Positions 6,726 to 28,877 of a stretch of DNA of 64,000 bases are shown piece after piece; the first letter of the stretch is position 1; each line of letters begins with the position of its first letter. The stretch spans positions 2,232,001-2,296,000 of the forward strand of contig NZ_CP086068.1 of NCBI RefSeq assembly GCF_020783335.1, written 5' to 3'. The position numbers and the translations under genes were made by a program. The stretch is from Mucilaginibacter daejeonensis. Lineage in GTDB: Bacteria > Bacteroidota > Bacteroidia > Sphingobacteriales > Sphingobacteriaceae. The notes below the pieces were generated by a model that saw nothing but the letters and a program-made list of their open reading frames with translations, did not search any database and was not told the origin of the DNA.

Positions 6726-6852
6726 TCTTTACCTCCAACACGCTTCACTGTAAAAAACGACCGGGAATGCTACCAACATCCCCGGCCTGATATATCAGTG
6801 TTCAGCATCGACTTATTCACACAATCCACTGAATCACTAACAAACAAATGTA

Positions 6853-10473: not shown

Positions 10474-10487
10474 AGCCCTCATTCATC

Positions 10488-11855
10488 ATGAATAATTTTA
10501 GAATACTAATCTTAAGCTGCCTGGTGTTTTGTGCCAGCGCCTGCCGCAAATATGTAGAGATACCACCTGAGCAGGTAAGAGCTTTAAAATATACCACTGA
10601 CTATCAGGCACTGCTTAATTATGGCCAAACCATAGAGCCTGGTTACTCATATCCTATTTACATGGCCGATGACTTTGGCGTAGAAGATGAGACATGGTAC
10701 ACCCGTCTTACTTTAAGCGCACAAGTGAACAGTTACATTTGGGCTGAAAAAATATATACTTCAGCTGAGGATGATACCGACTGGGCATCATTTTACAAAC
10801 AGATCAACATTTTCAATACTGTTGCTACCGGTGTAGAAGGTAGCGAGGGTGGTACCGACGTACAGAAGAAGACCATCCAGGCATCTGCATTGGTGCACCG
10901 GGCATATGCCTATTTCACACTTGTGAACATGTACGGTAAACAATATGATGGCGCCACAGCTGCAACAGATCCGGGTGTGCCACTGCTGCTCTCTCCAAGC
11001 CTTTTCGCTTCGTTGGACAGGGCTCCTGTAAAACAGGTATATGATCAGGTGAAGACCGACCTGCTTAATGCTATGCCTTACTTGCCCGATGTGGCCACGT
11101 ACAACGTAAATCCGTCAAAGCTGGCTGTTTATGCATTGATGGCGCGGGTGTGCCTCAATACCCGTGAGTTCACTGAGGCCGAACGCTACGCCAACCTTGC
11201 GCTTTCTTTAAAAAATGGCTTGCTGGATCTTAATAATTATTTGGCTGCGACCCCTGTTCTGCCGCTTAAATTGGCCAACCCAGAAGAGATGTTCTTTAAA
11301 CGTGCCGGGCTATTCATCTCGAACATACCGCTAAACCCGTCGGCTGTAAACTTATATGATCCTAAGGACCTTCGTTATGTGGTCTTTACCAAAGACGGCT
11401 CGGCCATACTAGGAACCAACTTTACCGTTGGGCGCGGCTTATTTCGCCAACGGTTGAACACTGAAGGTATATATATTGGCCCAAGTGTACCGGAGATGCT
11501 GCTGATCAAAGCTGAATGCCAGGCCCGTGCCGGTAATATCGCTAACGCCATGGATGCCGTTAATACGCTACGTAAAAAGAGGTTCAAGCCTGCCGAGTAT
11601 TATGATCTTACAGCGAGCACCGCTAATGCCGCTTTGCATGTGGTGATCGATGAGCGTGGGCGCGAGTTCATGGGCCGCGGTTACCGCTGGTTCGATCAGC
11701 GCCGTTTGGTCAAAGACGCCGGTTTCATTAACACAGTGACGCGCAGGTTCAAAGGCGTTACCTACACGCTGGAGCCTACCAGCAACCGATATATATTCCC
11801 TATACCGGATAAATACATATTACAAAATCCAGAGCTAACACAGAATCCCAGATAA
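10488..11855 (+). CDS. SusD/RagB-family nutrient-binding lipoprotein
   Basis: A 455-residue surface lipoprotein partner of the preceding SusC. The signal peptide ends in a lipobox (CASAC at about residues 15-19) followed by RKYVEIPP. The TPR-rich SusD core is seen in SALVHRAYAYFTLVNMYGKQYD and LAVYALMARVCLNTREFTEAERYANLAL. The C-terminal signature is ERGREFMGRGYRWFDQRRL, ending in FPIPDKYILQNPELTQNPR, as is common in this family. At 455 residues it is slightly shorter than many SusD proteins. Gap to SusC is 14 bases, to the protease gene 9 bases, so the three are one operon. Confidence 0.94.
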   Translation: MNNFRILILSCLVFCASACRKYVEIPPEQVRALKYTTDYQALLNYGQTIEPGYSYPIYMADDFGVEDETWYTRLTLSAQVNSYIWAEKIYTSAEDDTDWASFYKQINIFNTVATGVEGSEGGTDVQKKTIQASALVHRAYAYFTLVNMYGKQYDGATAATDPGVPLLLSPSLFASLDRAPVKQVYDQVKTDLLNAMPYLPDVATYNVNPSKLAVYALMARVCLNTREFTEAERYANLALSLKNGLLDLNNYLAATPVLPLKLANPEEMFFKRAGLFISNIPLNPSAVNLYDPKDLRYVVFTKDGSAILGTNFTVGRGLFRQRLNTEGIYIGPSVPEMLLIKAECQARAGNIANAMDAVNTLRKKRFKPAEYYDLTASTANAALHVVIDERGREFMGRGYRWFDQRRLVKDAGFINTVTRRFKGVTYTLEPTSNRYIFPIPDKYILQNPELTQNPR

Positions 11856-11864
11856 ACAACTACT

Positions 11865-14405
11865 ATGAATTTGAGTAAAAACACCACTCTGTTTTTTACC
11901 GCATCAGGTATCGCGCTGACTATATCGGCGTGCTCGCTGCTGCAAAAGAAAAAGAAAGTGGTAGCTGCTCCGGCGCGCCCTATATCGGCCGAGCAAAGAC
12001 GTGCCGACAGCTTGAAAAAAGCGACGGCGCTGAAGCCTTATAATACCATTGTCACGACCGGAACAAAAACCTCACATGGCTTTTTCACGGTCCACAAAAA
12101 GGACAGCCGATGGTATTTTGAGATACCCAATAATATTTTGTATCGCGACATCCTTGCCGTTAGCCGGATATCAAAGGCATCTACGGACATGCGTCACGGT
12201 TCGTCCGGCTATGCGGGCGACCAGATCGGCGAGAGTGTGTATGATTTTGAGAAAGGTCCTGATAGTAAGCTGTTCATCCGTAGGCGGTCATTCAAAGAGA
12301 TGTCGAAAGACAGCACTTCGGCCATGTTCGCCGGATTGGTTAAAAACAACCTGACCACCATTGTGGCGTCGTTCCCGATCACATCGGTTAAGCCTGATTC
12401 GTCGGCAGTAGTGGTAGATGTGACCGACTTTTTGAACGCCGACAACGATGTTATCTATTTTCAACGGAAAGAGTTCAAGGACAATGCTGGCATGGGTGGA
12501 CAGCAAATGGACAAAAGTTATGTAGACCATATCAACACTTATCCTACTAATGTGGAGATCAATGCAGTAAAGACATACTCTGCAGGACAGAACCCTACCA
12601 ATTCAAGCTATACCGTAGAGTTGAATTGCTCATTAGTGTTACTCCCTTCTAACCCAATGAAGCCGCGTTTGCAGGATGAACGCATCGGTTATTTTACTAC
12701 CTCTTTCCGTGATTTTGACACCAAACCACAAGGTGTTTCAAACACCACATACATCACCCGCTGGCGCCTTGAGCCTAAACCAGAGGATGTGGAACGATAC
12801 AAACGTGGTGAACTGGTAGAGCCTAAAAAACCGATCGTTTACTACATCGACCCGGCAACTCCAAAAAAATGGGTGCCGTACTTGATGCAAGGTGTCAATG
12901 ATTGGCAAAAAGCCTTTGAAGCAGCAGGCTTTAAAAATGCGATCATGGCAAAAGAAGCTCCTACCAAACAGCAGGACAGTACTTGGAGCATAGATGATGC
13001 CAATCACGCTGCCATCATTTACCGTCCGTCAATTGTGGCTAACGCAATGGGACCGAGTGTGGCCGATCCTCGTAGCGGCGAGATCATCGAGAGCCATATC
13101 TTCTGGTATCATAACGTTATGTCGATCTTACAACAATGGTACATGGTACAAGCTGGCGCTGTTGACAAGCGCGCCCGTAAGGCAGACTTTGACGATGAAT
13201 TAATGGGAACACTTATCCGTTTTGTATCGTCGCATGAGGTAGGCCACACACTTGGTCTTCGACACAATTTTGGTTCAAGTTCAACAGTTCCGGTCGAAAA
13301 GCTACGCGATAAAGCTTGGGTTGAAGCCAACGGTCACACTCCTTCGATCATGGACTACGCGCGCTTCAACTACGTTGCACAACCTGAAGATAACATTGGC
13401 AAATACGGTTTATTCCCACGCATCGGCGATTACGACAAATGGGCCATCAAATGGGGATATACCTGGCGTCCGGAATACGCATCAGCTCAAGATGAGCATA
13501 AAGCCATGGTAAAAGTAGTGACGGATTCTATTCGCAATAATCACCGCTTATGGTTCGGTGGCGAGACCGAATATTTTGACCCACGGTCGCAAAATGAAGA
13601 CCTTGGCGATAACGCGATGCTGGCCGGTTCTTATGGTATTAAGAACCTAAAACGCATCGTTCCACAATTGCACAGCTGGCTAAGCAAACCTTACGAAGGG
13701 CAAGAGGAGCTCCTGAAGGGTTACGAAGGGGTTTGGGGACAACTTTCGTTGTACGTAGGCCATGTGATCAAAAATGTTGGCGGAACCTATCACACCGTGC
13801 GTGTGAATTTTGAAAACAAGCCTGTTTACACGCCTGTGCCATATACTCGCCAAAAGCAGGCCATATCATTTTTAAATAAGCAGGTTTTCGATACGCCTAA
13901 ATGGCTTGATCTACCTGACCTGCAAAATGATTTTTCGATCAGTTTTCCAATCGAGTTAAGCAAGTTGCAAGAGAGCACTATTAACGGTGTGATCACCAGA
14001 ATGCGATTAAGCCATATGTACACCGATGAGGTGGTGAATAAGTATAAGACCTACACCGTAGATCAATTGCTATCAGATCTGAATCATGGGATACTCAATG
14101 AAGTATATGCGGGCAAAAACGTTGATGTGTACCGCCGCAATCTTCAAAAAATGTATCTATACCGTCTATTGCAGCAAGCCTATCTGCCTAATGAGATGAA
14201 TACCATTTTTGCGATGAATACATACCATTTCACAGTAAGTGATCTAAATGGCATTATGCGTAACAATCTCAACCATCTGCAGGCATTATTCAATAAAGCA
14301 ACAAAAAATAAAGGGTTGAATGCTGTTACCCGTACCCATCTGCAACAGATGAATAGTATGATAACCCAAAAAGTCAACCTTGAGCGCTCGGGTTTGAATA
14401 AATAG
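11865..14405 (+). CDS. Lipoprotein zinc metalloprotease, metzincin-like (DUF5117/DUF5118 type)
   Basis: An 846-residue exported protease. The signal peptide ends in a lipobox (ISACS), so it is probably membrane-anchored. The zinc site HEVGHTLGLRH (about residue 457, HExxHxxGxxH) is complete, and a Met-turn candidate SIMDYARF follows about 40 residues later, both features of metzincins. The regions before (about 90-330) and after match the layout of large Bacteroidota zinc proteases with DUF5118, DUF5117 and a catalytic domain. Being the last gene in the SusCD operon, it likely acts on protein or peptide substrates taken up or captured by the pair. No immunity or propeptide motif is evident. 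Confidence 0.9.
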   Translation: MNLSKNTTLFFTASGIALTISACSLLQKKKKVVAAPARPISAEQRRADSLKKATALKPYNTIVTTGTKTSHGFFTVHKKDSRWYFEIPNNILYRDILAVSRISKASTDMRHGSSGYAGDQIGESVYDFEKGPDSKLFIRRRSFKEMSKDSTSAMFAGLVKNNLTTIVASFPITSVKPDSSAVVVDVTDFLNADNDVIYFQRKEFKDNAGMGGQQMDKSYVDHINTYPTNVEINAVKTYSAGQNPTNSSYTVELNCSLVLLPSNPMKPRLQDERIGYFTTSFRDFDTKPQGVSNTTYITRWRLEPKPEDVERYKRGELVEPKKPIVYYIDPATPKKWVPYLMQGVNDWQKAFEAAGFKNAIMAKEAPTKQQDSTWSIDDANHAAIIYRPSIVANAMGPSVADPRSGEIIESHIFWYHNVMSILQQWYMVQAGAVDKRARKADFDDELMGTLIRFVSSHEVGHTLGLRHNFGSSSTVPVEKLRDKAWVEANGHTPSIMDYARFNYVAQPEDNIGKYGLFPRIGDYDKWAIKWGYTWRPEYASAQDEHKAMVKVVTDSIRNNHRLWFGGETEYFDPRSQNEDLGDNAMLAGSYGIKNLKRIVPQLHSWLSKPYEGQEELLKGYEGVWGQLSLYVGHVIKNVGGTYHTVRVNFENKPVYTPVPYTRQKQAISFLNKQVFDTPKWLDLPDLQNDFSISFPIELSKLQESTINGVITRMRLSHMYTDEVVNKYKTYTVDQLLSDLNHGILNEVYAGKNVDVYRRNLQKMYLYRLLQQAYLPNEMNTIFAMNTYHFTVSDLNGIMRNNLNHLQALFNKATKNKGLNAVTRTHLQQMNSMITQKVNLERSGLNK

Positions 14406-14476: not shown

Positions 14477-15025
14477 GCAGCGGTGTATATAAATTGTAAA
14501 TACGAGAGAGCTCCACTTGAATTAGTTTTTTGTATCTGTACCGTTAATGTATTATGCAAATGTTACTATTGCTTTTTTTGAATGAATTAAAGACTAATTA
14601 AGCAATCAGAATGACGTTGATTATTCTACCGAACCCGGCCGAAAATAGAATAAAAAGCGCCTTCAAGATTTACCAGAAGTACTTCGGGGTTTATATTTAT
14701 TTGAGTTATACCATCGATATACGAACGTCTTATCGTATAAGTCTGATCGTTGACTTGCTAACGGGGACAACTGCTCAGTGTAGCTGCAAAACTTTTGTGT
14801 AATTCATTTAATCGGTACTGTTGGTTTATCGCATAAAATGATTTAGCTATATTTGCAAATACGATTCAATTTTTCAGATTTTATAAAATTTCAGTTCGAT
14901 AACAAATCATTAAAGAATTGATCACTCGGTATGAGGTTTTGATCAAGCCTTATAAAGTAAACCTGTAACATTGCTAAACACTCCATCGTTTTTATTTTAG
15001 CTCCTGCTTAAAATGCTCTTTGCGG
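14477..15025. other. Intergenic region before the mannan locus
   Basis: No gene is supported here; a 63-codon open frame at 14611-14802 has no family resemblance and no supporting signal. The stretch is AT-rich and contains a good -7 element (TATATTTG at 14848-14855) for the LacI regulator gene, implying a leader of about 165 bases. Confidence 0.6.
14848..14855 (+). promoter_or_regulatory. Putative promoter -7 element of the LacI regulator gene
   Basis: TATATTTG is a perfect Bacteroidota -7 element (TAnnTTTG), with a TTGG about 23 bases upstream as a possible -33 box. The gene starts about 170 bases further on. Confidence 0.45.
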
Positions 15026-16042
15026 ATGAAAAAGAAAATTTCGATCAATGATATTGCGAAAGAACTCGGGGTGTCTATCACCACGGTATCTTTTATATTA
15101 AACGGCAGGGCACAGGAGAAGCGCATTAGCGAAAAACTGGTAAAAAGGGTGTTAGATTTTGTGCAGGAAGTGAACTATAAGCCAAGTTCGCTGGCTAGGA
15201 GTCTACGTACCGGCAAGACCAACATTATTGGTTTAATGGTTGAAGATATTTCCGACCCCTTCTTTTCGGCGATAGCACGTGCGATTGAGGCCATCGCATA
15301 TCAAAGTGGCTATAAGATAATCTATTGCAGCACCGAAAACGCAACGGAAAAAACGCGAGAGCTGATCGGAATGTACAGTGAAAGGCATGTTGATGGTTAC
15401 ATCATTGTACCCCCTGAGGGCATAGAACAGGATATTAAGCTATTATTGGAAAGCGGTAAGCCTGTCGTTTTGATCGACCGTTATTTGCCAGCGATCGAAA
15501 CAGATCATGTGGTTGTTGACAATGAAAAAAGTGCATATGATGCTACCTGTCATTTGATCGATAACGGTTACAAAGACATCGCATTTGTGACGATAGATTC
15601 TTTACAGCCTCAAATGCAGGATCGTTTGTCTGGCTATGAAAAGGCGATGGCGGCAAACGGGTTACCCCAATTAGTCAAAGAGATCGCTTATAAGACCAGT
15701 GAGCAGGCAATGCAGCAGATCTCTGTATTCCTTGACCGCAAAAGGGGAGTCGACGCCATATTCTTTGCTACCAACTACTTATGTGTAAGCGGACTAAAGG
15801 CCATGTCGGCTAAAAACCTCCACATACCTCAAAATATAGGTGTTGTAAGCTTTGACGATTACGAACTGTTCGAATTGTATTCTCCATCTATCAGCACAGT
15901 GTCTCAACCCACAGACAAGATCGCTGAACATGCCATCAATCTGCTCTTATCCCGGTTGAAGAAAACGGTCAGCGATAAAGTTTCCAAAAAGATCGTCGTG
16001 CCTACTTCGTTAATAATCCGAAATTCTTCGGTTAAAAAGTAA
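15026..16042 (+). CDS. LacI-family transcriptional regulator of the alpha-mannan locus
   Basis: A 338-residue LacI/GalR regulator from the ATG at 15026; a TTG two codons earlier (15020) is a less likely start. The N-terminal helix-turn-helix (INDIAKELGVSITTVSFILNG) and hinge helix (YKPSSLARSLRTGKT) bind palindromic operators with a central CpG. Residues from about 62 on form the periplasmic-binding-protein-like effector domain (NIIGLMVEDISDPFFSAIARAIE, VVSFDDYELFELYSPSISTVSQP). It heads the ROK/GH125/GH76/MFS/SusCDE/GH76/GH31 block, whose two promoter regions carry matching palindromes (16106-16119, 21201-21214). The effector is probably a mannose-derived sugar, which is inference. LacI control differs from the hybrid two-component or SusR control usual for Bacteroides mannan loci. 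Confidence 0.94.
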   Translation: MKKKISINDIAKELGVSITTVSFILNGRAQEKRISEKLVKRVLDFVQEVNYKPSSLARSLRTGKTNIIGLMVEDISDPFFSAIARAIEAIAYQSGYKIIYCSTENATEKTRELIGMYSERHVDGYIIVPPEGIEQDIKLLLESGKPVVLIDRYLPAIETDHVVVDNEKSAYDATCHLIDNGYKDIAFVTIDSLQPQMQDRLSGYEKAMAANGLPQLVKEIAYKTSEQAMQQISVFLDRKRGVDAIFFATNYLCVSGLKAMSAKNLHIPQNIGVVSFDDYELFELYSPSISTVSQPTDKIAEHAINLLLSRLKKTVSDKVSKKIVVPTSLIIRNSSVKK

Positions 16043-16105
16043 AACCCTGGTTATCAGTAACTTGTGGCAATTTTATAAAATTACAGAGATGTGATTATGA
16101 ATTTG

Positions 16106-16119
16106 CTAAAACGTTTTAC
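16106..16119. promoter_or_regulatory. Putative LacI-family operator upstream of the ROK kinase gene
   Basis: CTAAAAC|GTTTTAC has a perfect 12-bp palindrome core (TAAAACGTTTTA, 16107-16118) centred on CpG, the classic LacI operator form. It lies 42 bases before the ROK gene and 63 bases after the LacI gene. It fits the 14-bp consensus CTAAAnC|GnTTTAG with one mismatch, as does the site before susC (21201-21214), and both are preceded by TTTG. Confidence 0.65.
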
Positions 16120-16161
16120 ATATTTGCTACCGTTATCCTATAAACCTATAACAACCATTTA

Positions 16162-17061
16162 ATGAGATCAAGCCTATCTAATTACAAAATCATTGGAGTT
16201 GATATCGGTGGCTCACATATTACTGCAGCGCAGGTTGTGCCCGATGATCATACTATCATGGCCGATACTAAGGTCAGGCTTAAAGTAGACGCTCATGCAG
16301 ATGCCGATACCGTGATAGGCAAGTGGGCCGAAGCGCTATGTGATCTGTGTGATTCCGAAAACAGGGATGCTATTAAGATCGGTATCGCTATGCCAGGACC
16401 GTTCAATTATAATGAGGGCATATCCTTGATCAAAGGCATGAACAAGTACGAATCATTGTATGGAATGAACGTCCGCAAGCTACTATCAGAAGCGCTTGGA
16501 ATAGAACCTGATAATATCGTTTTCAGAAATGATGCGGAGGCCTTTTTACATGGCGAAGTAACGTTCGGTAAGGTGCCGTTCACTTCAAAGGCTATAGGCA
16601 TAACTTTAGGAACAGGTCTTGGCTCTGCTGTGAGCATCAACGGCATAACTAATGATGTTTTCAGGGCCATAAATAAAATGCATGACGGCATCGCCGAAGA
16701 TTACATATCCACCCGATGGTTTCAAAAACGTTGTTTGGAATTATCGAGCGAGGCGTTAACTAATGTCGAAGCACTGTTGAACCATCAAGATACAGCCTTG
16801 AAAGATCAAATATTTAATGAATTCGGTACTAATCTGGGTTTCTTTTTAAATGCCTTTGCCGTTGACGAACAAGCTGATGTGATTATTATTGGCGGCAACA
16901 TAGCGAAGAGCATGGATACGTTCATGCCTCACGTCTTAAATCAATTTGTGAACAAAGACCTAGAGGTGAGGCAAAGTGTATTGTGGGAAGATGCTGCGTT
17001 AATAGGGGCTGCGTGCAGCTGGCCAACCAAAACTCCATCCCACATCTTCGCGACAAACTAA
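16162..17061 (+). CDS. ROK-family sugar kinase
   Basis: A 299-residue ROK protein. The phosphate-binding motif GVDIGGSHITAA (about residues 12-24), the catalytic Asp in VFRNDAEAFLHGE (about 121-134) and the second phosphate loop ITLGTGLGSAV are all present, so kinase activity is plausible. The ROK ExGH and CxCGxxGCxE zinc motifs are absent; the corresponding region reads MHDGIAEDYISTRWF, an alternative subgroup form. There is no DNA-binding domain, so it is an enzyme rather than a ROK repressor. In this locus it most likely phosphorylates mannose (or glucose) released from mannan after MFS import; the exact sugar is an inference. Confidence 0.88.
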   Translation: MRSSLSNYKIIGVDIGGSHITAAQVVPDDHTIMADTKVRLKVDAHADADTVIGKWAEALCDLCDSENRDAIKIGIAMPGPFNYNEGISLIKGMNKYESLYGMNVRKLLSEALGIEPDNIVFRNDAEAFLHGEVTFGKVPFTSKAIGITLGTGLGSAVSINGITNDVFRAINKMHDGIAEDYISTRWFQKRCLELSSEALTNVEALLNHQDTALKDQIFNEFGTNLGFFLNAFAVDEQADVIIIGGNIAKSMDTFMPHVLNQFVNKDLEVRQSVLWEDAALIGAACSWPTKTPSHIFATN

Positions 17062-17140
17062 CAGCCTGTCAGATCGGATCGGTCAATAACATGCTAATTC
17101 TTTAAAACACTGGCGTAAACTTGAAACAAATCATACTCCT

Positions 17141-18562
17141 TTGAAAAGACGTAACTTCCTTAAACAAACAACTATTATAGGTACAGCAAGTGTTTTAAGT
17201 AGTGGTTTTGCTTATGCACTTCCTGCGGATCTTAAAGTGGTTCGAACACTTCCCGCCAAACGAAGATTCACTAGTTCAGCGGTTGAGAGCGCGATCGCCG
17301 AGTTCAGTAAAAATGTTAAAAATAAAGAGCTGGCATGGTTATTTAACAACTGCTTTCCAAATACCTTGGATACAACAGTTACCTACACTATCAATGCCGG
17401 AAAACCCGATACCTATGTTATCACCGGTGATATAGATGCGATGTGGCTGCGGGATAGCACAGCACAGGTATGGCCATATCTGCCCTTCATGAAACAGGAT
17501 GCAAAGCTTAAAGACCTCATTGCTGGGGTCATCAATCATCAGGTAAAGTGCATATTGAAAGACCCTTATGCCAACGCGTTCTACAACGATGAGAACAAAG
17601 TAGGAGAGTGGGCACATGATCTTACCAAAATGCAGCCTGGAATTCATGAGCGGAAATGGGAGATCGATTCGTTATGCTACCCTATACGCTTAGCTTACCA
17701 CTACTGGAAACAAACGGATGACGTGAAGCCCTTTGATGATAAATGGCAGCAGGCCGTCAAAAACATCCTGAAAACCTTCAAAGAACAGCAGCGTAAAGCG
17801 AATGATGGTCCGTATTCGTTTCAACGGAAAACTGCCTGGGCTACCGATGGGGTACCCATGGAAGGCTTCGGCTATCCGGTGAAGCCTGTTGGATTGATCT
17901 GCTCGGCCTTCAGGCCCAGTGATGACGCAACGGTCTATTCGTTCTTGATACCTTCAAACTTCTTCGCGGTGACCAGCTTAAAGCAAGCATCAGAAATGAT
18001 GACCGTTATTGCTAAAGATAACGATACGGCTAACGAACTCACTGCATTGGCCACAGAGGTAGAACAGGCATTAAAGCAACATGCCGTAGTCACACATCAA
18101 AAATACGGGCAGGTGTATGCTTATGAAGTAAATGGTTTTGGCAGTTATAATTTAATGGACGATGCCAATATACCAAGCCTTTTAGCGATGCCTTACCTAG
18201 GTGCAATGGATGTAAATGATTCGATCTACCAAAACACCCGTAAGTTATTACTATCTGACGATAACCCATTCTTTTTCAAGGGTACAGCAGCGGAGGGGAT
18301 TGGTGGTCCGCATATTGGTAAAGATATGGTTTGGCCACTTAGTATCATAGCGAGAGGTTTGACAAGCACTAATGATGATGAGATAAGGAACTGCATACAG
18401 ACGCTTCAGCGAACACATGGAGGTACAGGATTCATGCACGAATCCTTCCATAAAAACGATCCTTCAAAATTTACCCGGAGCTGGTTCGCCTGGACAAATA
18501 CCATATTTGGCGAATTTTTATGGAAGACTTACAAAACCAAGCCTCACTTATTGAACGCATAG
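17141..18562 (+). CDS. GH125 exo-alpha-1,6-mannosidase
   Basis: A 473-residue glycoside hydrolase family 125 enzyme, which releases mannose from the non-reducing end of alpha-1,6-mannan. The start is a TTG: it places the twin-arginine-like signal KRRNFLKQTT at the extreme N-terminus, followed by a hydrophobic run ending FAYALP. Family hallmarks are DIDAMWLRDSTAQVWPY (about residues 95-111), the block KMQPGIHERKWEIDSL, and GGPHIGKDMVWPLS near the C-terminus, followed by MHESFHKNDPSKFTRSWFAW. It is therefore exported, probably by Tat, to the periplasm. The gene follows the ROK kinase by about 80 bases and precedes a GH76 gene by 30 bases. Confidence 0.93.
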   Translation: MKRRNFLKQTTIIGTASVLSSGFAYALPADLKVVRTLPAKRRFTSSAVESAIAEFSKNVKNKELAWLFNNCFPNTLDTTVTYTINAGKPDTYVITGDIDAMWLRDSTAQVWPYLPFMKQDAKLKDLIAGVINHQVKCILKDPYANAFYNDENKVGEWAHDLTKMQPGIHERKWEIDSLCYPIRLAYHYWKQTDDVKPFDDKWQQAVKNILKTFKEQQRKANDGPYSFQRKTAWATDGVPMEGFGYPVKPVGLICSAFRPSDDATVYSFLIPSNFFAVTSLKQASEMMTVIAKDNDTANELTALATEVEQALKQHAVVTHQKYGQVYAYEVNGFGSYNLMDDANIPSLLAMPYLGAMDVNDSIYQNTRKLLLSDDNPFFFKGTAAEGIGGPHIGKDMVWPLSIIARGLTSTNDDEIRNCIQTLQRTHGGTGFMHESFHKNDPSKFTRSWFAWTNTIFGEFLWKTYKTKPHLLNA

Positions 18563-18592
18563 CTAGATAACAACCAATATCATAAATCGAGC

Positions 18593-19675
18593 ATGAGAAA
18601 CTTTATTAAGGTATTTTTAACACTTGCTGTAGCTGCAGGCTTCGGCGAAGTTAAGGCGCAACGATCTGCTTACCGTAGTCATGTAAAAGATCTGTATAAT
18701 GCCATTAATGCAAATTTGAAAGACCCCAGGTCAGATCTTTATTTCGAGACCACCGATCCGGCTAAGAACGAGCATCCGCACTCGTACCTATGGCCGCTTT
18801 GTGCTTATATACAAGGTGCCAATGAAATGGAGGTGTTAGAGCCTCAAAAAAAATATATGTTGCCTGTTGAAAAGGCGATAGCACAATATTATCGAGCGAC
18901 ACCGCCATATCCGGCTTATCAGGACTATGTGGTGAAAGAAAAAACTACAACTTTGTATTATGATGATAATCAGTGGATTGCCATCGCTTACATGGATGCC
19001 TACAAACGCAAACATGACAAAAAGTACTTAGACACATCTAAAATGATCTATCGCTTTATGATCGGTGGCTTAGATACCGTAGGCGGTGGTGGCATATACT
19101 GGCGCGAAAAGGATAATACCACAAAAAATACCTGCTCGAATGGCCCTGGTGTTTTGGTGGCATTGCAACTATATAAAGCGACAAAGAACAAGGAGTATCT
19201 AAAAACAGCTCTTGATATTTATAACTGGACCAAAAAGCATTTGCAGGCGCCCGAAGGCGTATATTATGACAACGTAAAACTGCCATCGATGGAATTGGCC
19301 AAGGCTACTTACACATACAACACTGGCACCATGCTGCAATCGGCTGTTCTACTTTACAATATCACTAAAGATAAAAAGCATTTGATCGAGGCACAGCGCG
19401 TGGCCAAAGCGGGTAAGGCACATTTTTTTAAAAATGGCCGCTTACCTAACGAGTATTGGTTCAATGCAGTGATGCTACGCGGTTATGTTGAGCTTTATAA
19501 AGTTGACAAAAACAAAGAGTGGATCACTTTTTTTGAGCAGGATGCCAACGCGATATGGGAAAAGGAACGTGATGAACACAACTTAGTTGGAAATAAAAAG
19601 GAGAAGAGATTGATCGACCAGGGTGCAATGATCGAGATCTATGCAACACTTGAGCAGGTAAAGAACATCAAATAA
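18593..19675 (+). CDS. GH76 endo-alpha-1,6-mannanase, periplasmic type
   Basis: A 360-residue glycoside hydrolase family 76 protein. The signal peptide (MRNFIKVFLTLAVAAGFGEVKAQ) has an AxA-like signal peptidase I site and no lipobox Cys, so a periplasmic enzyme is predicted. The adjacent catalytic aspartates of GH76 are in YYDDNQWIAIAYMDAY (about residues 121-136), and the alpha/alpha-barrel repeats GPGVLVALQLYKATKNKEYL and YTYNTGTMLQSAVLLYNIT are clear. It should cut imported alpha-1,6-mannan oligosaccharides for GH125 to finish. A second, lipoprotein GH76 lies at 27384. Confidence 0.92.
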   Translation: MRNFIKVFLTLAVAAGFGEVKAQRSAYRSHVKDLYNAINANLKDPRSDLYFETTDPAKNEHPHSYLWPLCAYIQGANEMEVLEPQKKYMLPVEKAIAQYYRATPPYPAYQDYVVKEKTTTLYYDDNQWIAIAYMDAYKRKHDKKYLDTSKMIYRFMIGGLDTVGGGGIYWREKDNTTKNTCSNGPGVLVALQLYKATKNKEYLKTALDIYNWTKKHLQAPEGVYYDNVKLPSMELAKATYTYNTGTMLQSAVLLYNITKDKKHLIEAQRVAKAGKAHFFKNGRLPNEYWFNAVMLRGYVELYKVDKNKEWITFFEQDANAIWEKERDEHNLVGNKKEKRLIDQGAMIEIYATLEQVKNIK

Positions 19676-19788
19676 ACAAACACTGAAATTTGAATAGCAT
19701 TTGAGCAACTAAGTATTTATGCTTTGATGCTTTTACCAATCTGTTATTAACGACCTACCTGTTATACAAAACCTCTTATAAACCAATA

Positions 19789-21015
19789 ATGACCGTTAAA
19801 CCAACTTTTACCGATAAGAAGTTTCTTATCACTTTGATCTTTGTTACCTCTCTTTTTGCATTTTGGGGTATAGCGATATCGCTTGGTGATGTTTTGAACA
19901 GGCATTTTCAACAGGTACTGCATGTCTCCAAGGCGCAATCTGGCTTGGTTCAGTTCTCCATCTTCGGCGCATACTTCATCATGGGTGTTCCAGCAGGCCT
20001 ATTCATGAAGCGTTTTGGTTATAAGAACGGTGTTCTGCTCGGCTTAGCGCTTTTTGCTATAGGCTCATTTTTGTTCGTACCGGCAGCAAACGCGGAATCA
20101 TTTACATTTTTTCGTATCGCTTTATTTGTTTTGGGTTGTGGCCTTTCAACACTCGAAACGGTAGCGCACCCATTTGTGGCTTCATTAGGACATCAGGATA
20201 CCAGCGATCAACGGATCAATTTTGCCCAAAGCTTTAATGCGTTGGGTACTATAATCGGCCCACTCATTGGCTCACAGTTCATATTTAACGGAGCTGCCGA
20301 GCAGGCGAGTGTTGGTTTAGATAAGATCAAGTTACTGTACATCATCATTGGTGCTGTAATAGCTGTTACTGCATTCTTGTTCGCCATGGTCAAGGTGCCT
20401 GCGATCACCGATGTACATGGCGTGATCACAGAGGGTGTACATGCTGAAGTGGCGCCAAAACCATCTAAAAAGTTGTTCCAGCAAACCCACTTTGTTTGGG
20501 CCGTAATAGCACAGCTTTTCAATGTTGCGGCCCAAGCCGGTACCTGGGCTTTCTTTATCAACTACGGGCACGACAAGATGGGCCTAACCGATTCTGCTGC
20601 CAGTGGTTACATGATCATTTTCATGATCATGATGCTTGCTGGGCGCTTTATAGGCACTTACTTAATGCGCTTTATCGCTCCTAATAAGCTATTAGCTGCA
20701 TTTGCATTGGGCAATATTATAATGTGCCTCTTAGTAGCGCAGGGGTTAGGCTGGATCTCATTTGCCGCTTTATTCATGATCAACTTCTTTTTTAGTATCA
20801 TGTTTCCAACCATCTTTAGTTTAGGTATCAAGGGATTGGGGCAGCAAACACAGCAAGCCTCATCTTTTATATCAATGGCCGTAGTAGGTGGAGCTATTTT
20901 TCCTATCATTATGGGGAAGGTGGCTGATCATGATGTAGCCACAGCATATTATCTGCCTATCATTTGTTATACCATCATCTTACTTTTTGCCACAAAATTT
21001 TATAAGGTCAAATAG
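19789..21015 (+). CDS. MFS sugar transporter (FucP/GluP family)
   Basis: A 408-residue inner-membrane permease with about 12 hydrophobic helices. The N-terminal stretch TLIFVTSLFAFWGIAISLGDVLNRHFQ and the loop GLFMKRFGYKNGVLLGLALFAIG are typical of the FucP/GluP proton-coupled hexose transporters of Bacteroidota. It lies between the periplasmic mannosidases and the SusCD pair, so the likely cargo is mannose (or the glucose released by GH31). It has its own 113-base upstream gap without an obvious promoter motif. Confidence 0.9.
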   Translation: MTVKPTFTDKKFLITLIFVTSLFAFWGIAISLGDVLNRHFQQVLHVSKAQSGLVQFSIFGAYFIMGVPAGLFMKRFGYKNGVLLGLALFAIGSFLFVPAANAESFTFFRIALFVLGCGLSTLETVAHPFVASLGHQDTSDQRINFAQSFNALGTIIGPLIGSQFIFNGAAEQASVGLDKIKLLYIIIGAVIAVTAFLFAMVKVPAITDVHGVITEGVHAEVAPKPSKKLFQQTHFVWAVIAQLFNVAAQAGTWAFFINYGHDKMGLTDSAASGYMIIFMIMMLAGRFIGTYLMRFIAPNKLLAAFALGNIIMCLLVAQGLGWISFAALFMINFFFSIMFPTIFSLGIKGLGQQTQQASSFISMAVVGGAIFPIIMGKVADHDVATAYYLPIICYTIILLFATKFYKVK

Positions 21016-21196
21016 CCAAAGGTCTCTGTTGTCTGATCGCTCCAGCTCATGTGGGCAACCACTACGAAATGCAGTTCTTAGCTATGTTATCTATTTGGGT
21101 ATCTACCTGAACGCAGGAACTGCTAAGCATGCTAAACGAGCTTGATCCACAGTGCTTGGAGGCCAATATTTATTCTAAATAATTTACTTCAACTTT

Positions 21197-21226
21197 TTTG
21201 CTAAATCAATTTAGTTTATATCTTTG
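21197..21226 (+). promoter_or_regulatory. Predicted Bacteroidota promoter of the SusCDE-GH76 operon
   Basis: TTTG (21197-21200) and TATCTTTG (21219-21226) are a -33/-7 pair with an 18-base spacer. The LacI-like palindrome sits entirely in the spacer, so bound repressor would block polymerase. Confidence 0.65.
21201..21214. promoter_or_regulatory. Putative LacI-family operator in the susC promoter
   Basis: CTAAATC|AATTTAG is a 14-bp palindrome with perfect six-base arms. It agrees with the CTAAAnC|GnTTTAG consensus derived together with the 16106-16119 site, one mismatch each, and is located between the -33 and -7 boxes. Confidence 0.6.
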
Positions 21227-21434
21227 AAAAGAATTACTATTTGCCCAACTCTTAGTAATAACCAATTAAAACCAATTATATGAAAACTTTCTATCCATGC
21301 GCTGGCAAGCTATGGGCTTGTACGGTAAGCTTTCTCAGTGAGCCATATTTAACAAGTGCTCCTTTCACGTGAAGCTGATCATTCACGATCATCGCTTTTT
21401 CAACAAAAACACATAAACCCCAATAGAACGAATT

Positions 21435-24400
21435 ATGAGGATATTTACTTATCGATTAAAATTATCCGGATCGTTAACGCCCAGGCCACATCAACTAAGT
21501 TGCCTGATGGTATTGTTTCTTACCTTTTTTATGCTAAATGCATTTGCGCAAACTAATCGTGTTGAAGGTACGGTAGTTGACGAAAAAGGCGAGCCATTAC
21601 CTGGCGTGAACATACGGATCAAGAATACGCAGATCGGAGCTGCGACGGATGTTAACGGCCATTACGTGGTCAATGCACCTACATCTACAGGCACGTTAGT
21701 ATTTAGTTCCCTCGGTTATACGACCTTGGAGCGCGATTTTACAAAAGGAGCTAAGATAGACGTTAAACTCGCGACCAGCCAAAACGCACTTAATGATGTG
21801 GTAGTGGTAGGGTATGGTACGCAAAGGCGCGCATCGATCACCAGCGCTGTTGACCAGGTGACAGCTGTCGCTATACAGGGCAAGCCTGCCGTTAACGTAA
21901 CACAAGCCTTACAAGGTACTTCTCCCAGCTTGATCATTCAACAACGGAATAACGAACCGGGTGCAGGCATCAACATTAACATTCGCGGTGTAAGCACACT
22001 CGGTAACAATTCTCCGCTGGTAGTGATAGATGGAATAGTTGGTGGCGATATCAACCTTCTTAATCCCTCAGATATCGAAAGTGTATCTGTACTGAAGGAT
22101 GCCGGTTCAGCAGCTATATACGGTTCACGTTCATCTAACGGTGTGATCTTAGTCACTACTAAACAAGGTAAAAAGAATTCGCGTACTCAGGTGACCTATA
22201 ACGGTTTAGTTGGTGTGCAAACCCCTAAAGTGTTCTATAAACCTGTGCACGGGTATGAGAATGCTATTCTACGTAATCAGGCTAACGTTAACGCCAATCA
22301 ACCGGTGATCTACAGCGCTGAGCAGATACGTAATTTCCAGCAGCAAGGAGATACGGAGTTTTTTCTGGATGCTATTTTAAAGAACGCGCTTCAGCAAAAC
22401 CATAACTTAAGCCTAAGCGGCGGCACTGATAAGTCAAGTTACCTGGTTTCTGCAGGCTTTGTTGATCAGCGCAATAACCTGGTAGGGCCGGGTTTAGGTT
22501 TGCGTCGTTATAACTACAGGCTGAACATGACGAACGAGTATGGAAGGCTTAAATTGAACAGTATATTATCATACGCACATTCTGATATTAAAGATCATTC
22601 TTCCAGCACATCGACCCTTATTGTAGATGCCAGTAGGGTACCTTTGTATTATCAGTTGAAAGACGATCAAGGCCGGTATTTAACTAATAGCGTTTTGAGT
22701 GAGTTCAATCCGCTCGGCGTGTTAGAGAAAGGTGGCTACCGCAAATACAATAACGACAACATTTTTGGAAGCTTAAATGCTGAGCTTACAGTAACCAGCT
22801 TTTTAAAGTTGCGTGGTGTATTCGGCGGAACGTTGAACGCCAATCACCAATTTGCAAGGACCTTGCGTGTTGATTACTTTCCAAATGGAGTATCAGGCGC
22901 AGACCGGAACACTAATGATGAGAACTACAAAGATCTGTTGTTGAACACCCAGTTTTTGGCTGAGTTCAATAAGGTGTTCAATAAAAAGCATTTTGTGAAT
23001 GTGTTGGTTGGTGTATCTAACGAATCATTCAACAGTGAACAATCGACCATATACCGCAAATTCACCGACCCTGAGTTGGGCACACCGATCTCAGAAACGG
23101 TGATCGATCCCAATTCATCCAACAGTAATCAGCGTACTAACGAAACAAGCTTAAACTCTTTGTTAGGCCGCGCCAATTACTCTTACCAGGATAAATACTA
23201 TGGTGAGTTTAGCTTCAGAGTTGATGCCTCATCTAAGTTCAACAAGCAAAACCGTTCGGCATTCTTCCCGTCGTTCTCTGCAGGTTACCGTTTGAGCCAG
23301 GAAAGTTTCATGGAAAAATACCGTAACAACGTTGGTGATATCAAGCTACGTGGTTCATACGGTATTTTAGGTAACCAAAATGTTGGCAACTACCAATATC
23401 AAACTACGTACACCTCATTCCAAAACGCATACGGTTTTAATAACACCTCAGTAAGCGGCACTGGCTTTGCCTTTGCTAACCCTGACATACGTTGGGAGCG
23501 TGCAGCTACAATGAACTTAGGTGCCGATGCTACCTTCTTAAAGAATACGCTGACGGTATCATTAGATTACTTTAACAAACATACCAGGGATATTTTGATA
23601 CCTCCGGCGGTACCAGGTGTGTTCGGTTCTGGCTTACCCGACTATAATGCTGGCGAAGTTCAAAACCGTGGTTGGGAGATCAACATCAATTACCGTTTGA
23701 GTGGTCGCAACCTTCGTCACACGTTCAACTTCAATTTAGGCGATAATAAGAATAAAGTGTTGTATTATGAAGGTGGCACACGCTTATCTAAATACGACGA
23801 GATGCAGGTCATCTTACAAAACGGCTTGCCTTTCCAATCTTATGTGGGCTTAAAACGTGATGGCTATTTCCAAACGTTAGACCAGATCGCGGCGGGCCCT
23901 AAGCCAGCGGGATTGGCACTGTCTCCGGGCGATATCCGTTACGTGGACGTTAACAAGGATGGCGTGATCAACGATCGTGACAACTTTGTTTTGGGTAATC
24001 CGTTCCCACGTTACAATTTCGGGTTCACCTATAACGTAGCTTACAAGCAGTTGGACCTGAGCATATTTATTCAGGGGGTTGGCCGACGCAGCACATTCGT
24101 CCGTGGCGAATTGGTCGAGCCGTTCCACTTCAACTACGGCCAAACCATGTACCAGCATCAACTCGATTTTTGGACACCAACCAATCCTGATGCTGAGTAC
24201 CCTCGCCTGGCGGCTAACGGCAGTGCATCTAATGAGAATAACTTCCGTCGCGGATCTGATCTGTACATCTACAGTGCGGCATATGCCCGTTTAAAAAATG
24301 TGCAGTTAGGATACACCCTTCCTAAAAAGTTAGCTGGCAAGATCGGCATGCAAAGTTTGAGAGCGTATCTATCAGGTCAGAACCTATACACACTATCTAA

Positions 24401-24524
24401 GCTTAAATTTTTAGATCCTGAAGCCAGTGAATTCAATAATAGCCTAAGTGCAGGTGGTGCTAATAGTGGGCGTACGTACCCTACGCCAGTATATGTAGGT
24501 TTTGGTTTGGATGTAATATTTTAA
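21435..24524 (+). CDS. SusC-family TonB-linked outer-membrane transporter of the mannan locus
   Basis: A 1029-residue SusC homologue without an STN domain, so a pure importer. After a long signal sequence (hydrophobic core LMVLFLTFFMLNAFAQ) come a CarboxypepD_reg-like domain (about residues 43-105, VEGTVVDEKGEPLPGVNIR), the TonB-linked motif VVVVGYGTQ, a plug domain (NIRGVSTLGNNSPLVVIDG, LKDAGSAAIYGSRSSNGVI) and the beta-barrel. It is expected to move surface-generated mannan oligosaccharides into the periplasm under the SusD lid encoded 8 bases downstream. Transcribed from its own LacI-controlled promoter. Confidence 0.95.
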   Translation: MRIFTYRLKLSGSLTPRPHQLSCLMVLFLTFFMLNAFAQTNRVEGTVVDEKGEPLPGVNIRIKNTQIGAATDVNGHYVVNAPTSTGTLVFSSLGYTTLERDFTKGAKIDVKLATSQNALNDVVVVGYGTQRRASITSAVDQVTAVAIQGKPAVNVTQALQGTSPSLIIQQRNNEPGAGININIRGVSTLGNNSPLVVIDGIVGGDINLLNPSDIESVSVLKDAGSAAIYGSRSSNGVILVTTKQGKKNSRTQVTYNGLVGVQTPKVFYKPVHGYENAILRNQANVNANQPVIYSAEQIRNFQQQGDTEFFLDAILKNALQQNHNLSLSGGTDKSSYLVSAGFVDQRNNLVGPGLGLRRYNYRLNMTNEYGRLKLNSILSYAHSDIKDHSSSTSTLIVDASRVPLYYQLKDDQGRYLTNSVLSEFNPLGVLEKGGYRKYNNDNIFGSLNAELTVTSFLKLRGVFGGTLNANHQFARTLRVDYFPNGVSGADRNTNDENYKDLLLNTQFLAEFNKVFNKKHFVNVLVGVSNESFNSEQSTIYRKFTDPELGTPISETVIDPNSSNSNQRTNETSLNSLLGRANYSYQDKYYGEFSFRVDASSKFNKQNRSAFFPSFSAGYRLSQESFMEKYRNNVGDIKLRGSYGILGNQNVGNYQYQTTYTSFQNAYGFNNTSVSGTGFAFANPDIRWERAATMNLGADATFLKNTLTVSLDYFNKHTRDILIPPAVPGVFGSGLPDYNAGEVQNRGWEININYRLSGRNLRHTFNFNLGDNKNKVLYYEGGTRLSKYDEMQVILQNGLPFQSYVGLKRDGYFQTLDQIAAGPKPAGLALSPGDIRYVDVNKDGVINDRDNFVLGNPFPRYNFGFTYNVAYKQLDLSIFIQGVGRRSTFVRGELVEPFHFNYGQTMYQHQLDFWTPTNPDAEYPRLAANGSASNENNFRRGSDLYIYSAAYARLKNVQLGYTLPKKLAGKIGMQSLRAYLSGQNLYTLSKLKFLDPEASEFNNSLSAGGANSGRTYPTPVYVGFGLDVIF

Positions 24525-24532
24525 AAACAACA

Positions 24533-26161
24533 ATGATGAAAAATATAAAAGGTAAAGGTGTAACTCTGGCACTGCTCATACTCTTTTCGGCTTGCAAAAA
24601 GCTTGATCTGGCGCCAGTGGACCGTTTTACGGACCTAACATACTGGACAACATCAGAAAAAGCTAAAACAGTTTTGAACACAGCTTACTCGCAGATGTTC
24701 AACAACAATTATTTCTTTTTGAATGAGGCACTGTCAGACAATGCCTACAATAGCAGGGGAGACAATGAGGGCGTGGCTTCGATAGCAGCCGGTATACATG
24801 ACCCATCGCTGAGCCGTTTCAATAACGAGTGGGATAATCACTACTCAGGTATTAAAACATGTAATGTTTTTCTGGAGAATGTAGATAAGGTCACCAGTAT
24901 GGATGCCGGTTTGCGTGAGCGCATGAAAGGCGAGATCCGCTTCATTCGTGCATTTCAATACTTCCAGTTGTATACATGGTTTGGTGATGTTCCACTGTTC
25001 GATAAGGATATCACGCTTGACGAAGCTAAGACCATCGGTCGTACACCAAGGGCACAGGTAGTAGAGTTTGTGCTGAAAGAACTGGATGCGGCAGCAGCTA
25101 TATTACCTGTTAACACAGCTTATGCAAATGCTGATAAAGGGCGTATAACTAAGGGTGCAGCCCTGGCTCTGAAGGCGCGCGTATTGCTTTACGAAGGGCG
25201 TTGGCAAGATGTAGTAACTGCCTGCGAGCAGGTTATGTCGGGCACAAACGGCACATACAGTCTCTTCTCGTCTTACGAAGGATTGTTCTTACCGCAGAAC
25301 GAGTACAATAACGAAGTGATCCTGGATCTGGGTTATGTGCCATTGCTGCGTACGTATAGCAACTTTTTTGATTATGCTCCAATATCAGTAGGCGCACGTC
25401 TGAATAACTTTGCCCCAACTCAAGAATTAGTCGATAGTTATTTGATGACCAACGGTAAGACCATCAACGAAGCTGGTTCGGGTTATGATGAGAACAACCC
25501 TTACGTAAATCGTGATCCGCGTTTGACCGCAACAGTGGTTTACCACAATTATCAGTGGAAAAAACCTGATGGCACTACGCAAACCATTTATATAAAGCCA
25601 GGATCTGATCCCAATCAAACCACAAAGTTGGATGAGTATGCACCTGGTTCAGTAGCATCTGCTACAGGTTATTATCTGCGTAAATACTACGATCCAACAT
25701 CCGCGAGCAACTTTCAGTCGGGTCTGAATTTGATCCTGATACGTTACGCCGATATATTGCTGATGTATGCTGAGGCCAAAAATGAGTTAGGCCAGATGAC
25801 CAGCGACGTATGGGACAGAACCGTTAGAGCTTTGAGAGCTCGTGCAGGTTTTACAGATGCCGCAGCATTGACCTACAATGCTACAGGCGGTCAGGCTGGC
25901 TTACGCAGCATTATCCGCAATGAGCGCCGTACCGAGCTGGGTATGGAAGGTTTACGCATATTCGATATCAGAAGATGGCGTACAGCTGAGACCGTGCTGA
26001 ACGGTTGGGCACATGGCGCCAAATATGGACCGGCTGCAGTTGATAATGGATACATCAGGGCCAACCAGCGGGTATTTGATCCGGCAAAGCATTACCTGTG
26101 GCCTATACCAAGAGAGGAGAGGAATCTCAACCCTAACTTAACTCAAAATCCTGGATGGTAA
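24533..26161 (+). CDS. SusD/RagB-family glycan-binding lipoprotein of the mannan locus
   Basis: A 542-residue surface lipoprotein. The lipobox FSACKK (Cys about residue 21) is followed by LDLAPVDRFTD, a typical SusD opening. SusD_N-like and TPR segments are visible (RFIRAFQYFQLYTWFGDVPLFD, AALALKARVLLYEGRWQDV), with C-terminal SusD motifs LILIRYADILLMYAEAKNEL and ERRTELGMEGLRIFDIRRW and the ending NLNPNLTQNPGW. It acts as the hinged lid and binding protein of the SusC transporter immediately upstream. Confidence 0.95.
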   Translation: MMKNIKGKGVTLALLILFSACKKLDLAPVDRFTDLTYWTTSEKAKTVLNTAYSQMFNNNYFFLNEALSDNAYNSRGDNEGVASIAAGIHDPSLSRFNNEWDNHYSGIKTCNVFLENVDKVTSMDAGLRERMKGEIRFIRAFQYFQLYTWFGDVPLFDKDITLDEAKTIGRTPRAQVVEFVLKELDAAAAILPVNTAYANADKGRITKGAALALKARVLLYEGRWQDVVTACEQVMSGTNGTYSLFSSYEGLFLPQNEYNNEVILDLGYVPLLRTYSNFFDYAPISVGARLNNFAPTQELVDSYLMTNGKTINEAGSGYDENNPYVNRDPRLTATVVYHNYQWKKPDGTTQTIYIKPGSDPNQTTKLDEYAPGSVASATGYYLRKYYDPTSASNFQSGLNLILIRYADILLMYAEAKNELGQMTSDVWDRTVRALRARAGFTDAAALTYNATGGQAGLRSIIRNERRTELGMEGLRIFDIRRWRTAETVLNGWAHGAKYGPAAVDNGYIRANQRVFDPAKHYLWPIPREERNLNPNLTQNPGW

Positions 26162-26188
26162 TTCACTTAAACTTTAAAAAATAAGAAC

Positions 26189-27328
26189 ATGAAAAATATT
26201 ATATATAAACTGGGAATGCTGGCACTGGTGCTTACCGTATGCCTAAGTGTTGGTTGTAAAAAAGATAAAGAACTTGGCAACACCAACGTATCTGAGGTGA
26301 CAAATTTTTACGGCCCCACCAACAATAAATATATCAAGCTTGATCCTTTAGCCGGAACTCAAACCTTTGAATGGGAGCAAGCACGTGCCGAAGATGGCGG
26401 CCTTGTGCTTTACGAGGTTGTATTTGACAAAGAGACCGGTGATTTTTCACAACCTCTATTTTCCTTATCATCTGATGAAAAAGGAATGAAGAATAAGCTG
26501 ACCATCAGCGATGCCGACCTGAATAAGATAGCGAACATGGCTGGCATCAAATCATTAGCTACCGGTAAACTTAAATGGACGGTTTGGGCATCTAAAGGCA
26601 TAAATGTAAAAAAGTCTGCCACCTCCCGTTTAATTGAAGTGGAGCGTCCGGCTGGCTTTGCTGAAGTTCCTACCGAACTATATTTGACCGGTAGCGCTAC
26701 TGAAGCCGGTACCGATCTGTCAAGATCATTAAAATTCAAAAAGCTTACCGCAAGTTCATATGAGATCTACACCTCACTAAAAGCTGGTACTTATCACTTT
26801 GCAGCAGGCACCAATGCATCGGCCAAAACTTACACCAATAACGGAAGCACCTTAGTTGAAGGTGGCGATATTACCGTGACTGGCAGTACCAAGGTTTACC
26901 GCATATTAGTTGAGTTCGAAAAAACCAACACTACTTTCACCGAGATCACCTCATTGGGCTTATGGTTCTCGCCCGAAAATAAAGTATTGCATGTGCTGAA
27001 TTACGCAGGTAACGGTGTCTGGACCGCAACCAACGCCTTGATTGTGTTCCGTCAGGAGACCTGGGGAAGAGATGAGCGCTATAAGTTCCGTATGAGCGTT
27101 AAGGATGCTGCTGGTACCGCAAGCAACGAGTGGTTCGGCAGTGTTAACCGCGATAATAGCCGCCCTGATGCAAATACAGCTGCCTCTTACTTTAACCTAA
27201 CAAAGGTTGATGCTAATCAGTACGACAACTCATTTAAATTCAATTCGGGGGCCGATAACAAGAACGTAGACATTACGGTGAACTTTAATGCTACCACCAC
27301 TTATAACCATACGATAACTGTTAAATAA
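26189..27328 (+). CDS. SusE/SusF-like surface glycan-binding lipoprotein
   Basis: A 379-residue lipoprotein with a lipobox at SVGCKKDKE (Cys about 23). The N-terminal part has the SusE-domain pattern (YIKLDPLAGTQTFEWEQARAEDGGLVLYEVVFDKE), i.e. an Ig-like domain, followed by two beta-rich domains of the SusE/F type (ELYLTGSATEAGTDLSRSLK and WFSPENKVLHVLNYAGNGVW). SusE/F proteins are noncatalytic outer-leaflet polysaccharide binders. Its place directly after SusD and before the lipoprotein GH76 supports a role in holding mannan at the cell surface. Confidence 0.85.
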   Translation: MKNIIYKLGMLALVLTVCLSVGCKKDKELGNTNVSEVTNFYGPTNNKYIKLDPLAGTQTFEWEQARAEDGGLVLYEVVFDKETGDFSQPLFSLSSDEKGMKNKLTISDADLNKIANMAGIKSLATGKLKWTVWASKGINVKKSATSRLIEVERPAGFAEVPTELYLTGSATEAGTDLSRSLKFKKLTASSYEIYTSLKAGTYHFAAGTNASAKTYTNNGSTLVEGGDITVTGSTKVYRILVEFEKTNTTFTEITSLGLWFSPENKVLHVLNYAGNGVWTATNALIVFRQETWGRDERYKFRMSVKDAAGTASNEWFGSVNRDNSRPDANTAASYFNLTKVDANQYDNSFKFNSGADNKNVDITVNFNATTTYNHTITVK

Positions 27329-27383
27329 TTTAACCATCACTGCTGCAGGGTACGACCTGCGGCAGTGGTATTAAAACAGCATA

Positions 27384-28550: not shown

Positions 28551-28877
28551 TATCAAGCCGTAAAGTAAAAGCGTCCGACATAGATCGGCGCTTTTTGCTT
28601 TTGTATAGATATCACTGTATTATAGAAAGCGATGGCGTAGTGCTTTTGTGATACTATATTCATCAGTTATCATGCATATGGTAACTTGAGCTCGGTCTGG
28701 CACTTAGTCACACATTATCCTTATTTCAATATACGGTCGAGCATTGACGTAAATAAAATTCCGTAGGATAACTCCACTTTGAATGATCAACCGTCTTAGG
28801 GTGTAACGACCAAGGAAAGTATCCCAATAGTTCGACCTGCTTTCAGCAAAAGTTCAGTATCATTTCGTTTTTAAATT
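28551..28877. other. Intergenic region between GH76 and GH31
   Basis: Holds a terminator at 28567-28596. The remaining bases contain no gene; I see no clear TAnnTTTG promoter for GH31. Confidence 0.5.
28567..28596 (+). terminator. Hairpin terminator after the SusCDE-GH76 operon
   Basis: Arms AAAAGC (28567-28572) and GCTTTT (28590-28595), with an inner CCGA/TCGG stem, followed by a T-rich tail 17 bases after the GH76 stop. Confidence 0.7.

Follow-up and report, generated by a model that had tools for sequence, protein, structure and literature searches.

A LacI-type regulator and its candidate operators at an alpha-mannan SusCD locus of Mucilaginibacter daejeonensis

The question raised by the locus described here is how a utilization locus of the SusCD type for alpha-mannan, a mannan of the yeast type, is controlled when a gene for a LacI-type regulator stands at its head and no hybrid two-component sensor gene or sigma/anti-sigma gene is found among its 10 listed open reading frames (ORFs) of at least 120 aa. 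The locus (15020-31046) lies in a stretch of 64,000 nucleotides from Mucilaginibacter daejeonensis (contig NZ_CP086068.1, positions 2,232,001 to 2,296,000), which is called the window below and whose numbering is used unless another sequence is named. The answer proposed here, deduced from sequence, is that the LacI protein encoded at 15020-16042 is a local repressor that would bind two operators, GCTAAAACGTTTTAC and GCTAAATCAATTTAG, and repress the alpha-mannan locus until freed by mannose or a small mannoside. This mechanism is considered likely, with a probability of about 0.85.

Two palindromes and their conservation

An earlier note on this DNA had drawn attention to two matching palindromes resembling LacI-type operators, and a check of coordinates and letters bears this out. 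A 14-bp palindrome, CTAAAACGTTTTAC, is located at 16106-16119 upstream of the gene for a ROK-family kinase, and another, CTAAATCAATTTAG, at 21201-21214 upstream of susC. According to PMC4052901, most sites of LacI-family regulators are palindromes of even length centred on CG, a description that site 1 fits. With a conserved leading G added, the candidate operators on the plus strand extend over 16105-16119 (GCTAAAACGTTTTAC) and 21200-21214 (GCTAAATCAATTTAG), both being exact matches to the refined pattern discussed below.

Absence of the motif upstream of orthologues had been named beforehand as a point on which the proposal would fall, and the motif is present there. Among 149 Mucilaginibacter genomes searched, that of M. 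daejeonensis included, LacI orthologues with 72–88% identity occur in five others, in syntenic loci of the order LacI-(ROK)-GH125-GH76-MFS-SusCDE-GH76; one of these loci, L038, ends at a contig end. Site 1 is kept in all six loci, the window included, and site 2 in all five that are readable. In L039 (LacI identity 72%) there is no match to the ROK gene, yet site 1 is kept, upstream of GH125. The conservation is confined to narrow footprints: in the six loci 14 of the 15 columns of operator 1 are invariant, whereas beyond it only 25 of 103 columns free of gaps are, and operator 2 has 13 of 15 invariant columns in five loci, against 88 of 318 outside. A separate feature of L037 is a GH97 gene inserted between GH125 and GH76 (L037:12374-14320).

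The palindromes might be a matter of chance, or a coincidence of promoter sequence in A+T-rich intergenic DNA, and the loose 14-mer of the earlier note, CTAAANCGNTTTAG, gives this idea some room. With at most one mismatch it has three matches in the window against 0.20 expected (one of 100 shuffles reached three), and the third, at 22196-22209 inside susC, looks like chance and was set aside as such, four orthologues differing there at three or more positions. Genome-wide, the 14-mer is not enriched, with five places against 10 for its backwards control; alone, it is uninformative as the genome scan for the regulon that the note had recommended. The refined GCTAAAWCRWTTTAS, which includes the conserved leading G, has exactly two exact matches in the 4.81-Mb genome, both of them the sites reported here, with none for the control; the signal is therefore strong only once this G is included. 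Moreover, the sites are kept in six of six and five of five loci amid diverged flanks, a footprint that largely refutes a chance origin, and none of 300 permuted motifs reaches the count of sites found in six loci that had no part in making the pattern. Coincidence is thus scarcely credible as an explanation.

Weak sites (TTGCTAAAWCRWTTTAS, at most three mismatches) number 75 and 74 in the genome, against 64 and 84 in the control; since they are no commoner than the control, nothing points to a wide regulon in the M. daejeonensis genome. The sole one-mismatch match elsewhere, at genome position 3240585, was dropped, as it falls in intergenic DNA upstream of a Ppx/GppA gene, inside a terminator-like inverted repeat that T-rich DNA follows.

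The regulator and its candidate sites beyond the window

The protein encoded beside site 1 is a member of the LacI family by its Pfam scores (LacI, 43.1 bits with a cut-off of 27; Peripla_BP_3, 99.7 bits) and gives full-length profile matches to CcpA, RbsR, PurR, and LacI structure chains. Seven genes for LacI-type helix-turn-helix proteins, the window's included, are present in the M. daejeonensis genome, and none of the remaining six products exceeds 32% identity to it, where an alignment is obtained at all. Each of the 45 rows in the LacI set compiled around the window's protein (44 distinct proteins, 44–100% identical to it) shows the sequence TT[VI]SF[IV]LNG[RK]A, while in the five alignable other LacI proteins of the genome F is replaced by R (four) or K (one) and the loop is three residues shorter. 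As judged from these alignments, the group is marked by a modified recognition helix, with F at a position where R is usual in LacI proteins, and by a loop after it that is three residues longer.

When 399 genomes of the family were searched with the ROK protein, further LacI-ROK pairs emerged. A separate set comprises the loci of the best 80 of 570 relatives, with genera of the orders Sphingobacteriales and Cytophagales among them. Six of these 80 loci, with ROK matches of at least 51% and not used for pattern-making, served as a test: L164 and L175 from Pedobacter and L167-L170 from Sphingobacterium. Their 126,066 bases contain 15 sites, whereas 300 column-permuted motifs gave a mean of 0.32 and a maximum of 4 (0/300 as high). 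In each of the six, lacI is separated from the ROK gene by DNA that has a site; four of the six, being Sphingobacterium loci, are mutually non-independent. When the three pattern-making loci are removed from the 80, the remaining 77 hold 81 sites, whereas permuted motifs average 3.21 with a maximum of 10 (0/100). Column permutation replaced the backwards-pattern control (9 and 20 matches), which is not independent because the ATTTTGCTAAA flank conserved beside these very sites can itself give a match.

Within the genus, the 92 genomes with a LacI match of about 1e-97 or better, a threshold chosen after the list had been inspected, contain a mean of 1.61 exact sites, and the other 57 a mean of 0.42 (Mann-Whitney p 7.6e-8); the backwards control gives 0.74 and 0.56 for the same split (p 0.09). 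Among the best 80 loci, a site and an alpha-mannosidase-type gene occur together in 34, the gene only in 11, the site only in 10, and neither in 25 (Fisher p 3.8e-5).

Mucilaginibacter also has paralogues of this LacI (~55% identity) that adjoin a locus of ~30 kb with two SusCD pairs, a related MFS gene being present in four of the five examined. In the paralogue loci G064, G004, G105, G026, and G088, GCTAAATCAATTTAG or GCTAAAACAATTTAG stands before the first gene and again before a later gene block, a count of five out of five that is a description and not a test, because the five were chosen for having sites. It was considered that these paralogues might belong to starch loci, but the idea was rejected since Pfam annotation of nine proteins in the G064 locus gave GH38, two GH92, and several esterases.

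The earlier note had taken the neighbouring LacI to be the natural ligand of the palindromes. They could be bound by another regulator, either a second LacI or a global catabolite regulator, the adjacent LacI then controlling something else. Such a view finds support in another genus, where eight genomes (L142, L143, L148, L150, L155-L158) have a conserved related GCTAAAACGGTTTAA site (TTTTGCTAAAACGGTTTAA-type) upstream of their ROK genes and no match to the window's LacI within about 1.5 kb. It has to contend with the co-occurrence of the site with this LacI group across genera, and with the remaining six LacI-type proteins of M. daejeonensis, which are so dissimilar to the window's and have no site (at most two mismatches) within 1.5 kb of the helix-turn-helix. 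The presence of only two exact sites in the genome also speaks against a global regulator. An alternative ligand is therefore improbable, and the link between site and regulator argues for the adjacent LacI as the protein that would recognize both operators.

Promoter position and the proposed circuit

Bacteroidota promoters have a -33 box TTTG. The -7 box of the main promoters in this phylum is TAnnTTTG, as shown for a Flavobacterium (PMC9723704). Site 2 occupies the 18-bp spacer (20 bp in L037) between a candidate -33 TTTG (21197-21200, plus strand) and a candidate -7 TATCTTTG (21219-21226, plus strand) of the susC promoter, the first G of the operator being common to the TTTG; the -33 box is TTTG in four of five loci and CTTG in L039. 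In the ROK-gene promoter, also on the plus strand, the candidate -33 at 16096-16099 is TATG (TTTG in four of the six loci, TATG in two) and the candidate -7 CATATTTG at 16119-16126 overlaps operator 1 by one base; the two boxes are 19 bp apart in all six loci, and the -7 is either CATATTTG or GATATTTG. The earlier note was right in placing site 2 between the TTTG and TATCTTTG. The TTTG that touches site 1, which it also mentioned, has no more than 13 bp between it and the -7 box, a distance too short for a -33, and is part of the conserved flank.

Both sites are thus situated within predicted -33/-7 spacers and overlap the promoters of adjacent sugar genes, so that a bound dimer should exclude polymerase. 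This position bears on another possibility, namely that the LacI protein binds the sites and activates transcription or has a dual role, FruR/Cra being an example of a dual regulator in the LacI family (PMC4052901). A dimer that fills the spacer is hard to reconcile with activation, and among studied analogues the closest one found, SuxR, acts by repression (PMC1790865); an activating or dual role is accordingly very improbable, and repression is the preferred reading of the two sites.

The circuit may be pictured as follows. A LacI dimer would bind 16105-16119 and 21200-21214 and block RNA polymerase at both promoters. The promoter at site 1 is expected to read the genes, all on the plus strand, for the ROK-family sugar kinase (16162-17061; Pfam ROK), presumably a mannose or hexose kinase, the GH125 alpha-mannosidase (17141-18562; Pfam Glyco_hydro_125, 2.6e-175), a GH76 endo-alpha-1,6-mannanase family protein (18593-19675; Pfam Glyco_hydro_76), and a FucP-type MFS sugar:H+ symporter (19789-21015; Pfam MFS_1, with TIGR00885 above its cut-off). 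The promoter at site 2 would serve, on the same strand, the SusC-type TonB-dependent receptor (21435-24524; Pfam Plug, CarbopepD_reg_2, and barrel), SusD (24533-26161; Pfam SusD_RagB and SusD-like_3), the SusE-like surface protein (26189-27328; Pfam SusE), the second GH76 protein (27384-28550; Pfam Glyco_hydro_76), and possibly the GH31 glycosidase (28878-31046; Pfam Glyco_hydro_31_2nd). The proposed inducer, either mannose or else a small alpha-mannoside or a mannose phosphate derived from mannan fragments that the cell has taken up, would occupy the sugar-binding domain, and release of the inducer-bound repressor would switch on the whole locus.

The 10 ORFs of the locus are thus those of LacI (plus strand; 340 aa from a TTG start, with an ATG at 15026), ROK, GH125, GH76, MFS, SusC, SusD, SusE, GH76, and GH31. 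With susC adjoining susD and accompanied by GH125, two GH76, and GH31 genes, this is a SusCD polysaccharide utilization locus. The earlier note had spoken of mannan; the presence of GH125 and GH76, families whose activities are given in PMC9213526, specifies it as an alpha-mannan locus.

A third operator-like site, which the earlier note did not have, is found upstream of lacI: with one mismatch, GCTAAATCATTTTAT occupies 14833-14847 of the minus strand and is directly followed by a predicted -7 box of the lacI promoter, TATATTTG (14848-14855, plus strand). The repressor would probably bind this weaker site too, which is a probable autoregulatory site of lacI.

Downstream of the susC promoter, a 30-codon open frame begins (21280-21372). 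Frames of 30-35 codons stand at this position in four of four orthologues, with poorly conserved peptides, and the letters upstream are similar in three of them and not in L039; the frame possibly encodes a leader peptide.

On the other side of lacI, a separate SusCD locus adjoins (4805-14405), which encodes a met-zincin-type protein besides an extracytoplasmic function (ECF) sigma factor, FecR, SusC, and SusD. Its ECF sigma and FecR genes (4805-6725) lie upstream of that other SusCD pair, which is apparently sigma-controlled, unlike the LacI-linked locus.

Besides the genome-wide counts of the loose 14-mer, a number of observations weigh against the proposed repressor circuit or its generality. 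Site 2 has CA instead of CG at its centre, and a core of 14 bp falls short of the 16-22 nt given for LacI-family sites (PMC4052901). The third site is weaker and present in only part of the orthologues: the region before lacI has the exact GCTAAATCAATTTAC in two of five (L133 and L134), a version with two mismatches in L135, and no equivalent in L136 or L039. In the Pedobacter and Sphingobacterium test loci, a simple search for -33 and -7 boxes gave a promoter of suitable spacing at no more than two of 14 plus-strand sites (12053 in L164 and 12122 in L175), and the promoter reading is therefore firm for Mucilaginibacter only. Among the best 80 loci of 570, 10 have a site but no mannosidase match and 25 have neither; the p-values of the association, like those of the genus-wide split, overstate the evidence because loci within a genus are not independent. 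Related LacI genes near dnaA (L040) and near beta-lactamase/ABC genes (L043) have no site with at most one mismatch in 19.5 kb, and the LacI locus L174 of Chitinophagaceae, which has GH92, GH125, and a weaker ROK match, is also without a site. In L050, a related LacI gene with related sites is accompanied by genes for GH2, GH31, and ricin-type lectins, which argues against a uniform mannan role. The 25 loci with neither feature, the contexts of the L040 and L043 type, and the site-less L174 together indicate that the LacI group is not uniformly mannan-linked.

A wider proposal is held as somewhat better than an even bet. According to it, the LacI group with the modified helix TT[VI]SF[IV]LNG[RK]A and the longer loop would act as soluble repressors at the A/T-rich operator GCTAAAWCRWTTTAS and govern an alpha-mannoside regulon that takes in SusCD loci of differing architecture, both in Sphingobacteriales and in some Cytophagales, replacing the membrane hybrid two-component control of Bacteroides.

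Relation to known regulators

If the proposed circuit is true, alpha-mannan uptake in these bacteria would be triggered by an intracellular sugar through a soluble repressor, and not by a membrane hybrid two-component sensor of the kind proposed for Bacteroides. The operator motif could then be used to predict mannan regulons across related genera, and the LacI group would offer a case where an altered recognition helix could be linked to an altered operator. No earlier report of this regulon, motif, or LacI group was found in the open-access papers searched, some topics having been followed among the top-ranked matches only; PMC11784079 has no bearing on it.

The contrast with Bacteroides, to which the earlier note had appealed, is in print. 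PMC3878776 assigns the alpha-mannan loci of Bacteroides to hybrid two-component system (HTCS) regulators and mannoside genes to the GntR-type ManR. B. thetaiotaomicron (HTCS_Man-1, -2, and -3; ManR BT2103) shares the phylum and the alpha-mannan or mannoside targets with the present case and differs in the regulators, and the HTCS_Man sites predicted in that source are direct repeats, two 16-bp sites with a 5-bp spacer, unlike the 14-bp palindrome here. LacI-family sugar regulators are also known in Bacteroidota: UxaR, UxuR, KdgR, and UxmR of Bacteroides (PMC3878776, PMC4052901). They serve sugar-acid pathways of the uronate type and not alpha-mannan, and UxaR, UxuR, and KdgR form a taxon-specific branch (PMC4052901). 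The survey in PMC4052901 covers 344 genomes with a single Bacteroides group, and words that begin with 'Sphingobacter', 'Sus', or 'TonB' are absent from its main text; its pathway list of LacI regulators includes a LacI-family ManR for mannose and mannosides.

The 'distinct regulatory design' that the earlier note had suggested holds in relation to the HTCS loci of Bacteroides and does not hold in general. A xylan locus of Gramella flava with susCD lists a lacI gene (PMC5306329), and the sux locus of Xanthomonas, as described in PMC1790865, is built like the present one, with a LacI-type regulator, SuxR, over an MFS transporter (SuxC), a TonB-dependent receptor (SuxA), and an enzyme, the amylosucrase SuxB. 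Negative control of the sux genes and of suxR itself, relieved by sugar, has been shown in Xanthomonas (PMC1790865). The sux locus is for sucrose, whereas the locus described here belongs to a member of the Bacteroidota, is for alpha-mannan, and has SusCDE and other promoter boxes. Since LacI control of a sugar locus with a TonB receptor is known elsewhere, the logic itself is known, and the circuit proposed for M. daejeonensis would be an added instance of it.

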